From assembly GCA_013822345.1 (NCBI GenBank), contig PNKH01000036.1, forward strand, positions 1 to 62,828: DNA of 62,828 nucleotides, written 5' to 3'. The translations under genes were made by a program, and so were the position numbers. The notes under the pieces were generated by a model, which was not told the origin of the DNA, did not search any database, and was given only the letters and a program-made list of their open reading frames with translations. The stretch comes from Isosphaera sp. (GTDB taxonomy: Bacteria; Planctomycetota; Planctomycetia; Gemmatales; Gemmataceae). Positions 3,006 through 7,825 of this stretch are shown piece by piece (position 1 is the stretch's first letter; every line of letters begins with the position of its first letter).

Positions 3006-4157
3006 ATGGTCCGATTTCTCCTGGCCGCCATCCTGCTGTGCCCGGCGGCTCGTGCCGCCCCCGGTGCCGAGCGCCGCGTGGTCATCTACGACGGGGCCGC
3101 GACCGCGGTGGGCGCGGCCGGTGATGAGTCGAAAGACCTCTGGCTGACCCTCGCCGACCTCACGGCCGCCACCCGGTTCACGCTCAAGCCGGAGGGCGTC
3201 TGCCGCGACGAGCAGTGCTTCCCGATCCCCGCGGGGCGGGCCAAGGAGTTCGTCGCCCAGCGCGGCGAGGTCACCTGGTTCAACCTGAGCGAGTTCGGCC
3301 GGCTCCTCCAGCAGCCAGTCGCCCACGACGCCAAGCACGGCGTCTGGTGCTTCGGGCCGCGGCCGTCCGTCCAGAACGCCCACGTCGCGTCGCGGGTGGC
3401 GCCGGACTTCACGCTGCCGGACCTGAAGGGGAAGGACCACAAGCTGTCCGACTTCCGCGGCAAGAAGGTGCTCCTCCTGACCTGGGCCTCCTGGTGAGGG
3501 TGTCGGCTCGATTTGCCAGTTTGGCAAACCCTGTACGGCGAGCTGAAGAAGAACAACTTCGAGATCGTCTCCGTCGCCCAGGACACCGGCGGCGCCAAGG
3601 CGGCCGGCCCGTGGGTCGAGAAGGCCAAGCCCGGGTACACCGTCCTGATCGACACCCAACACGAGGTGACCCGGCTGTTCGACATGGTGAACGTGCCGAC
3701 GGCGGTGTGGATCGACGAGAAGGGGCGGATCGCCCGGCCCAACGAGGTCGCCTACGCGGACAACCGCCTCAAGGCGCTCCACGGCCTGGACGCCGAGCCC
3801 TACCTGAAGGGCCTGCGCGACTGGGTCGCCAACGGCGACCGCAGCCCGTTCGTGCTGAGCGACAAGGAGTGGAAGGAGCGGCTGAAGCCGCAGAAGTCGG
3901 ACCACGCGCTGGCGGCGGCGGAGTTCATTCTGGCGGAGTACCTGCACCGCGCCGGCAACCGCGCCGACGCGGTCGCGCACTACAAGGAGGCCCAGCGGCT
4001 GAACCCGGACAGCTGGAACTACAAGCGGCAGGCGTGGGCGCTGGGCGACGCGGAGCGCGACTACGGCACCAACTTCTTCAAGGAGGTCCAGAAGCTGAAC
4101 GGCAAGCCGTACTACGCACCCCGGACGTTGCCGGAACCGAAGGAGAAGAAGAACTGA
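3006..4157 (+). CDS. Secreted thioredoxin-like redoxin, probable selenoprotein (Sec164)
   Basis: The frame runs from ATG 3006 to TGA 4155-4157 (383 residues) with one internal TGA at 3495-3497. Residues 1-18 are a signal peptide (MVRFLLAAILLCPAARA). About 20-120 is an N-terminal region I do not recognise. About 128-275 is a TlpA/redoxin thioredoxin fold (APDFTLPDLKG, SDFRGKKVLLLTWASW). The TGA falls exactly where the active-site Cys belongs: WASW-TGA-G-C-R-L-D-L-P, i.e. Sec164-Gly-Cys166. The frame stays clean for 219 more codons with fold-consistent sequence (VPTAVWIDEKG) and a helical, TPR-like C-terminal region. A hairpin with a GU loop sits 22 nt after the TGA. It probably acts as a periplasmic thiol/selenol oxidoreductase. 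The alternatives, a true nonsense mutation or a sequencing error, are less likely because both the position and the hairpin fit. Confidence 0.8.
3495..3543 (+). promoter_or_regulatory. Putative bacterial SECIS element with Sec UGA
   Basis: The UGA is at 3495-3497. A perfect 6-bp stem (tttgcc 3512-3517, ggcaaa 3523-3528) closes a 5-nt loop agttt containing G3519-U3520. A lower helix can form from gctcg 3506-3510 and cgagc 3539-3543. Bacterial SECIS hairpins lie inside the coding region shortly after the UGA and carry a G or GU in the apical loop for SelB binding; the G here is 22 nt from the UGA. The stem is AT-rich in a very GC-rich gene. Confidence 0.65.
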
Positions 4158-5659: not shown

Positions 5660-5758
5660 CCCAGGGCGTTGCCCTGGGCTGAGGGAGCCCGCCCCTTCGG
5701 GGCTGTCTGCTGAGGGCCGAAGGCCCGCCCTCCCTCAGCCCAGGCCACCGGCCTGGGT
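5660..5758. repeat. Multi-hairpin palindromic repeat
   Basis: About 99 nt that fold into a cruciform. An outer helix ctgagggag (5679-5687)/ctccctcag (5730-5738) encloses two small hairpins (gccccttcggggc and gggccgaaggccc). Two more hairpins, cccaggg/ccctggg and cccaggcc/ggcctggg, flank the helix. It lies between the DUF1552 and DUF1592 genes and resembles REP/BIME-type elements. Confidence 0.7.
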
Positions 5759-5785: not shown

Positions 5786-7825
5786 CTACATCCCGGACCG
5801 GTACAGGAACGAATCACTCGTCAGTAGCGCCATGACCACCGCCTTGAAGCTCCCGCCGCTCTCGGTGTACGCCCGGTCGGCGTCCTGCAGCGCCTTCGCG
5901 TCGGCGAGCGTCTCGTTCCGGCCGAGGAAGTACCGGAAGGCGTGGCGGACGAACACCTGCCGGGCGCGGTCGGACGCGGCGATGCGCCGGACCAGGTCGC
6001 GCGGGTCGGTCACCGGGCCGTCGAGCTTCGGGTCGCCGCTGTCGGCGACCGTCCCGGTGGTGTCGAGCTTCGCGTCGCGGTGGACCGGGCCGAGCGGCTT
6101 CCCTTTCTTGTCGACGTTCTTCGCCGTCGCCTCCGGGTCGAGGACCGGCTCGGCGGTGCGGAACCGGCCGTAGTGGTCGAACTGCTCGAACGGCAGCCCG
6201 AGGTCGTCCATCCGCTGGTGGCACTTCCAGCACGCCGCGTCGCGGGTCACGGTCAGCCGGTCGCGGAACGTCCGGTGCGGGTCGTCCGGGACCTGGGCGG
6301 CGACCCCGATCGGCAGGTCCGGAACGGTCCCGCCGAGCAGCCGCTCCCGGACCCACCGGCCGCGGCGGACCGGGTCGTTGTCGAAGTTCGTGGACCACGC
6401 GGCGAGCCAACTCGGCTGCATCAGGACGCCGAGGCGGGTGTTCGCCGGCAGCGCGGCCGGCTGAACCGCCGGCCATTCCTCCAGCCCGTACACCGACTCG
6501 ACGCCGGCCTGGCCTTTGTTGTTGTTCGGGTTCGGGACGACCGCCCGGGCCGGGTCCTGCTTCCGCGTCTGCTTGTTCTCCTTCGTGGTGTAGTTCACGA
6601 ACGAGACGGGGGTGGTCAGCAGCTCGCGGAACACGTCCCGGTCGGCGGCGAGGACGTGGCGGACGAGCCGGTCGGTGTCGGCGACGAGCTGCCGCGGCTC
6701 GTGGATGAACGTCTTCGGCTTGTCCTTGAACACGTCGGTGGCGTTGTCGTACTCGAAATACTCGCGGAAGAAGCGGAAGACGCGGACCCGGTCGGCTTCC
6801 CGCGGCGAGTCGAGGAGGCGGCCGACGTGGGCCGCGACCTGCTCGCGGGTGGCGAGCTCGCCCTTCGCCGCGGCGGCCGCCAGCCCGGCGTCGCGCTTGT
6901 CGCCGAGGGCCAGGCTCACGGCGGTGACGAGCTCCGCCGGGGCGAGCATCCGCCGGCCTGTCCCGTCCGCCTTCCCGCCGAGTTCCGACCGGTAGACCGC
7001 GTCGGTCTTGAGCAGCACGGCCTGGAGCATCGTCTTCACCGCCCCGGGGCGGTCGCCGGTCCCGGCGCACTTCTCGTACAGCCTGGCGAACCGGGCCGCC
7101 TCGTCGGCGGTCGCCGCCCGGCCGATCGCCATCTTGAACTGGAGCTGGACGGCGGCCTCCAGCTGCACCCGGGTCGGCTCGGCGGTGTTGACGAGGGTGA
7201 CGAACTCGCGGACGCCGTCGTTCTTCGCGGTGGTCTGGGCCTCGACCATCGCCTCGGCGTTCCGGACCAGGATCTCGGTGCTCGGCTCGTCGATCGCGTA
7301 CAGCCCGGCGAAGTCCTTGATGCCTCGCTCCGGGATCAGGGTGAACGGCTGGACGAGGCCGTTCAGTTTGCCGCGGAACACCTGGGAGGCGAAGCCCACG
7401 TAGGCGTCGGGGCTGAGCCGCCAGACGCGCGGGGCGGGGGCGTCGCCGGCGGCCGCCGGCTTGCCGAAGAGGAGTTCGTGGGGGATCAGGTTGCCGCTAT
7501 TCGGGAGGCGGGCGGCCTTCGCGCCGGTGGCCCCGGACACCCACGCGACGACGGCCCGGGCCTGGGCGGCGTCCGGCTTCGGCTCCTTGGCCGGCGGCAT
7601 CAGCCCGTCGCGGACCTGATCGCGGACGGCGGCCCACCGCTCGACATCCTTGGCCGGGTCGGCCGGGAGGTCGTCGAGGCGGACGCCGCCGGCCGGCTTG
7701 TCGGGGCCGTGGCACTTCACGCAATGAGCGGTGAGGAACGGCGCGGCGGTGTCGCGGAAGCCGGTGTCCGCGGCGGAAGCAGAGGTGGCGAGGGCGGGGA
7801 CGAGGGCGAGAACGAGGCGGGTCAT
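5786..7825 (-). CDS. DUF1592/DUF1588/DUF1585 planctomycete cytochrome c protein
   Basis: A 679-aa exported protein with a signal peptide at residues 1-19. A planctomycete-type cytochrome c haem motif CVKCH (Cys35, Cys38, His39) follows. The long body matches the DUF1587/1592/1588/1585 architecture, with a second CWKCH motif near residue 530 followed by the DUF1588 signature DDLGLPFEQFDHYGRFR. The DUF1585-like C-terminus (RYFLGRNETLADAKALQDADRAY) is complete. Such proteins pair with DUF1552 partners, here 164 nt downstream across a palindromic repeat. They are thought to act outside the cytoplasm, possibly as redox or degradative enzymes; the substrate is unknown. Confidence 0.9.
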   Translation of the reverse strand: MTRLVLALVPALATSASAADTGFRDTAAPFLTAHCVKCHGPDKPAGGVRLDDLPADPAKDVERWAAVRDQVRDGLMPPAKEPKPDAAQARAVVAWVSGATGAKAARLPNSGNLIPHELLFGKPAAAGDAPAPRVWRLSPDAYVGFASQVFRGKLNGLVQPFTLIPERGIKDFAGLYAIDEPSTEILVRNAEAMVEAQTTAKNDGVREFVTLVNTAEPTRVQLEAAVQLQFKMAIGRAATADEAARFARLYEKCAGTGDRPGAVKTMLQAVLLKTDAVYRSELGGKADGTGRRMLAPAELVTAVSLALGDKRDAGLAAAAAKGELATREQVAAHVGRLLDSPREADRVRVFRFFREYFEYDNATDVFKDKPKTFIHEPRQLVADTDRLVRHVLAADRDVFRELLTTPVSFVNYTTKENKQTRKQDPARAVVPNPNNNKGQAGVESVYGLEEWPAVQPAALPANTRLGVLMQPSWLAAWSTNFDNDPVRRGRWVRERLLGGTVPDLPIGVAAQVPDDPHRTFRDRLTVTRDAACWKCHQRMDDLGLPFEQFDHYGRFRTAEPVLDPEATAKNVDKKGKPLGPVHRDAKLDTTGTVADSGDPKLDGPVTDPRDLVRRIAASDRARQVFVRHAFRYFLGRNETLADAKALQDADRAYTESGGSFKAVVMALLTSDSFLYRSGM

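Follow-up and report, generated by a model that had tools for sequence, protein, structure and literature searches.

The locus and its reading frame

The window, meaning the whole stretch of 62,828 nucleotides from Isosphaera sp. that was analysed, carries at 3006-4157 on the forward strand a reading frame that starts with ATG at 3006, terminates with TGA at 4155-4157 and is interrupted only once, by a TGA at the codon for residue 164 (Table 1). The original prediction had described a frame of 383 residues with a single TGA, set in a redoxin active site (WASW-TGA-GC) and followed by 219 further codons in frame. This description holds in each part: coordinates and motif are as given there, the 219-codon continuation is borne out by the count and by conserved sequence, and domain matches place the motif, read as WASW-U-G-C, in the active site of a redoxin.

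Table 1. Features of the selenoprotein candidate and their positions in the window
Feature	Position	Strand	Evidence or detail
Read-through CDS, predicted selenoprotein	3006..4157	+	383 residues plus stop; homology over near-full length
Signal-peptide-like N-terminus, residues 1-21	3006..3068	+	hydrophobic stretch, best 12-residue mean hydropathy 2.55
N-terminal domain, residues 22-125, holding C66 and C71	3069..3380	+	AF2 mean pLDDT 91.5
C-x4-C (Cys66 codon 3201-3203, Cys71 codon 3216-3218)	3201..3218	+	29/29 rows holding the region
AhpC-TSA/Redoxin thioredoxin-fold domain, residues 131-244	3396..3737	+	PF00578 71.4 bits, PF08534 56.3 bits
In-frame TGA, Sec164 (strongly supported)	3495..3497	+	frame reading; same codon TGA in relatives
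Cys166 of U-G-C, presumed resolving	3501..3503	+	30/30 rows
Asp169	3510..3512	+	aligned with ResA Glu80 (1st9); 29/30 rows
Bacterial SECIS-like hairpin	3512..3528	+	stem 3512-3517 / 3523-3528, loop AGTTT 3518-3522, G second in loop
TPR-like helical repeat, residues 306-335	3921..4010	+	PF07719 19.9 bits, below cut-off 27

The G+C content of the whole window is 72.7%, and in such DNA an open frame is weak evidence by itself, because, when the sequence downstream of the TGA is shuffled by mononucleotide, 96 of 20,000 versions stay open for 219 codons, and of its five alternative frames two are likewise open. The frame is instead settled as genuine by homology in both halves together with TGA at the same codon in 27 relatives. 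The alignment with one relative (L005) covers residues 4-377 of 384, on both sides of the TGA, and the AhpC-TSA and Redoxin matches of the read-through protein span it.

The redoxin gene is flanked by infC/rplT and, at its opposite end, by a DUF1552/DUF1592 pair, neighbours with which it seems to have no connection; one neighbour protein carries planctomycete-named domains such as PSCyt1. At eight congener loci with the DUF1552/DUF1592 pair no redoxin gene lies within approximately 1.5 kb beside the pair. No widely shared partner gene was found across the window and 29 related loci, the largest shared cluster comprising three loci, within flanks of approximately 0.1 to 6 kb that would miss partners further off, and within these flanks no conserved neighbour hints at a substrate. 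Between the DUF1552 and DUF1592 genes the window also contains an Acido-Lenti-1 RNA (RF01687) at 5660-5704 on the forward strand, scoring 38.3 bits against a gathering score of 37.

Relatives and selenocysteine machinery

The original prediction had proposed two checks, namely a search for homologues with U or Cys at residue 164 and a search of the genome for selA, selB, selC and selD. A contig scan of named genomes gave 24 relatives, of which 23 have TGA at the residue-164 codon and one, from a member of the Dehalococcoidia (L093, genome G062), has TGC. TGA also occupies this codon in four additional same-phylum relatives; L005 (genome G039, 42% identity), the sole full-length relative among the 40 other genomes compared, is a Cys form. 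The homologue check therefore comes to 28 rows with TGA, the window included, and two with Cys.

All four components of the machinery are present in the window genome (7.47 Mb in 226 contigs, 95.2% complete). The tRNA-Sec match scores 79.6 bits, the runner-up match in the same genome reaching 47.6, and ARAGORN reports a tRNA-SeC with anticodon tca. SelA (553.7 bits, cut-off 267.9), SelB (365 bits, cut-off 242.25) and SelD (384 bits, cut-off 125) all lie well clear of their thresholds. Weak matches to tRNA-Sec and SelB occur in all 14 control genomes, so only strong machinery matches were counted; above cut-off the controls yield tRNA-Sec in five genomes, SelB in two, SelA in one and SelD in two.

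Among 41 genomes, tRNA-Sec at 63.9 bits or more is found in 29, including 16 of 18 congeners. In the genomes that carry the family, SelB is above cut-off in 19 of the 24 named carriers; when G039 is added to these, 21 of the 25 have tRNA-Sec at E <= 1e-9. One or other component is present in 22 of the 23 named genomes with a TGA form. The exception, G045, lacks a tRNA-Sec match, and its SelB is just a C-terminal fragment, a gap that is perhaps due to incompleteness of the genome. Neither Cys-form genome (G039, G062) has SelB above cut-off or tRNA-Sec at E <= 1e-9. One Acidobacteria genome contains two adjacent tRNA-Sec genes with equal scores (G046:C465:6472-6566 and 6731-6825).

The distribution of the family is patchy. 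No full-length relative was found in the 18 congeners, three of which are represented by genomes only 65-82% complete, and a search across the phylum (392 genomes), keeping only matches at E <= 1e-40, gave at least five carriers including the window genome, all five with TGA. In the tree the window gene groups among Acidobacteriota rows (support 88/96). We considered a recent transfer from Acidobacteriota, which is weakened, despite this placement, by an AU test in which holding the window gene with the same-phylum rows is not rejected (p 0.357); we therefore state the patchy distribution alone, which is new within the evidence of this analysis. No match was found in a plasmid collection at E <= 1e-20 or in a phage collection at E <= 1e-10. 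The result is a well-supported selenoprotein added to a genus where tRNA-Sec is common but the family is otherwise missing from the 18 congeners compared.

Other redoxins with in-frame TGA codons were seen in passing. A second group of TlpA-like redoxins in the same order comprises ten genes with WGxWU, six of them with WGxWUGPC, at L104 (G031), L105 (G024, three in tandem), L109-L111 and L113 (G027), L112 (G022) and L114 (G019); all model matches of one member, P0002, fall under their cut-offs, and the nearest copy in the window genome is a Cys form. A related redoxin (L107, G003:C463) has two in-frame TGA codons in WSEFULTU, a possible UxxU, and a redoxin from a congener (L103, G006:C440) has FASWUAGCR, with TGA first in UxxC.

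A conserved hairpin beside the TGA

The hairpin begins 14 nt past the TGA. It was compared in 28 TGA-form genes (the window, 23 named and four same-phylum), which align without gaps over the 60 nt from the TGA. Of the 168 cells of the 6-bp stem 167 are paired, where shuffling gives a mean of 92.4%, and both sides have changed in 20 cells; RNAalifold, unprompted, gives the same helix and just that one. In a codon alignment of 27 genes (L094 excluded) this placement ranks first of 6,372 when 6-bp stems with loops of 3-9 nt are compared. The compensating stem changes are synonymous: Leu CUG/UUG is matched with Gln CAG/CAA in 28 of 28 genes (21 C-G, 7 U-A) and Asp GAC/GAU with the base opposite in 27 genes, in a comparison whose Fisher p values ignore relatedness. 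The second loop base is G throughout. In both Cys forms the stem is broken, the 17 nt folding at -3.3 and -2.1 kcal/mol, compared with -5.3 to -10.4 kcal/mol for the hairpin in TGA forms. The family offers a clear case of codon-level selection for a SECIS hairpin, with the stem lost in the forms that have Cys instead of Sec.

The available part of PMC13188914 describes a bSECIS by a loop of 3-9 nt, an upper stem of 4-16 bp, a G within the first two loop positions, a distance of 16-37 nt from the UGA and an MFE of -7.5 or lower. The window hairpin falls within these rules as given there, with a stem of 6-7 bp, a loop of 3-5 nt, a spacing of 20 nt and G second in the 5-nt loop (28/28); the 40 nt past the TGA fold at -11.2, stem included, and the 17-nt hairpin by itself at -6.4. 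When each gene is folded singly over 60 nt, the hairpin is part of the MFE structure in 18 of the 28; over 40 nt this falls to 10, the window being among those that have it. A fold of 81 nt starting at the window TGA shows no gain in stability over shuffled sequence (z -0.37). With no excess stability and patchy single-sequence folds, the hairpin stands out by comparison only. On the tree there are just three or four changes per stem column. The independent change pairs on supported branches number two and three, a sample too small for the sign test to reach significance, and one of these pairs lacks a partner change; of the six stem pairs two vary and three never do.

Two other readings of the TGA bear on this interpretation. 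It could simply terminate translation, or be a mutation that disables the gene, leaving a truncated product of 163 residues or a pseudogene, and a table 11 frame does stop at this codon in G+C-rich DNA where open frames come cheaply. We consider this very improbable, given that 27 relatives from Acidobacteriota, Chloroflexota, Binatota, Myxococcota and the same phylum have TGA at the same codon, that the sequence after it is conserved and that it runs without any further in-frame stop. Still less probable is a general recoding of UGA in the window genome, for example to Trp, for which we found no supporting point: the terminator of the window frame is itself TGA, as are those of 10 of 29 other extracted genes (taken by script as the first stop after residue 164), and the two relatives from genomes lacking Sec machinery have Cys, not Trp, at residue 164.

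We therefore identify 3006-4157 with high confidence as the gene for a selenoprotein that belongs to the WAxxUGC_long family (NF041054), with selenocysteine at residue 164 strongly supported. In the proposed decoding, which is supported indirectly, SelB and tRNA-Sec would read UGA164 as selenocysteine and the hairpin just 3' of it would direct the insertion; that the protein contains Sec is an inference. The central proposal of the original prediction, a Sec-containing thioredoxin-like protein, is thus supported by the machinery, the conservation of the TGA, the hairpin and the family match.

Proposed redox function and comparison with known systems

The predicted structure of the whole protein has a mean pLDDT of 89.1. 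Given its signal-peptide-like N-terminus, the protein is probably exported. A hydrophobic start is also present in same-phylum and Acidobacteriota rows, with starts chosen by script, except in L080, where the chosen start lies too late. Ten rows from Chloroflexota, Binatota and Myxococcota that include the N-terminus (L083-L090, L092, L093) have no such start, so the family may act on both sides of the membrane.

The N-terminal domain reaches no Pfam family cut-off and has no Foldseek PDB match at E <= 0.001; an initial guess that it is copper-amine-oxidase-like found no support. This domain with its invariant C-x4-C is new within the evidence of this analysis, a conserved dithiol domain with no counterpart in the libraries searched. 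In the 30 aligned rows W163, U/C164, C166, W173 and P231 are invariant. At the C-terminal end a TPR_2 match at E <= 0.01 is found in 25 of 30 members, and the repeat is followed by WNYxRQxW (residues 337-344), the fixed letters of which are identical in all 30 rows.

The mature protein, if exported, would thus have three parts: the C-x4-C domain, a ResA/TlpA-like fold with U-G-C and the TPR-like C-terminus. It would most likely reduce disulfides or oxidised thiols of the cell envelope. The Sec164 selenolate would attack the disulfide or oxidised thiol, Cys166 would resolve the mixed selenenylsulfide and Asp169 would assist, in the role ascribed to Glu80 of ResA. Judging from fold and motif, we put the chance that the WAxxUGC protein is a disulfide reductase at about even.

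It could alternatively be a selenoprotein with peroxidase activity, peroxiredoxin- or GPx-like. The top Pfam match is AhpC-TSA, the PRK09437 thiol peroxidase model matches 23 of 30 members and GSHPx 27 of 30, and a group is named 'Prx-like (UGC-containing)' in the part of PMC2398784 available. The best PDB folds from Foldseek are nevertheless those of ResA (2f9s, 1st9), DsbE and similar reductases, with TlpA lower and 3gl3 also matched, and Asp169 occupies the place of ResA Glu80. Peroxiredoxins carry the signature PxxxTxxC, which is missing here: position -3 is Ala in all 29 rows with a letter (A161 in the window protein) and position -7 is Leu or Ile (L157). On this evidence we regard a peroxidase as unlikely.

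The N-terminal C-x4-C might serve as a further redox centre. C66, C71, U164 and C166 are the sole Cys or Sec residues of the protein in 9 of 29 rows, although for one of the nine (L080) the start was picked too late. We tentatively suggest a two-centre redox protein in which C66-x4-C71 would exchange electrons with U164-G-C166 within one chain, a DsbD-like relay with a selenium terminus, extracytoplasmic in planctomycetes and Acidobacteriota and cytoplasmic in Chloroflexota, Binatota and Myxococcota; we think this unlikely.

The protein belongs to a family already in databases and is not a new kind of system. It matches NF041054 (WAxxUGC_long, 'ResA-like WAxxUGC motif-containing protein') at 324.7 bits against a curated cut-off of 300 and contains the motif as WASWUGC, U being the in-frame TGA. 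The model is matched at E <= 0.001 by every one of the 30 alignment rows. Its cut-off is reached by two of the five phylum carriers, L100-L102 falling below it in the genome search. There is no difference of substance from the family, apart from the genus of the window member otherwise containing no full-length relative (0/18). The original prediction was right that U-x-C is unlike CxxC, though this spacing is the signature of the curated family rather than an oddity of the window protein, and is in print. Literature searches on the WAxxUGC name and close wordings found no paper, and among the papers listed by other searches none dealt with how the family functions. Under other names, the available parts of three papers list a 'Prx-like (UGC-containing)' selenoprotein in 2008 (PMC2398784), a 'UGC-containing Prx-like protein' in 2022 (PMC9312934) and a 'UGC-containing TlpA disulfide reductase family protein' in 2026 (PMC13188914). 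As described there, these share the UGC motif, the AhpC-TSA/TlpA-like fold and a predicted Sec with the window protein, and they are likely to be NF041054.

Compared with ResA, TlpA and DsbE, the protein shares the fold, the Trp before the nucleophile and the loop Pro at the ResA position. Like ResA it has an acidic residue three past the second Cys, Asp169 corresponding to Glu80, and a profile alignment sets U-G-C on the ResA C-E-P-C with one gap. Unlike all three it has U-x-C in place of CxxC, an extra N-terminal domain and a TPR-like tail. The ResA model NF002854 gives 72.5 bits against a cut-off of 170 and CxxC is absent, placing the protein outside that family, although it may work like ResA.
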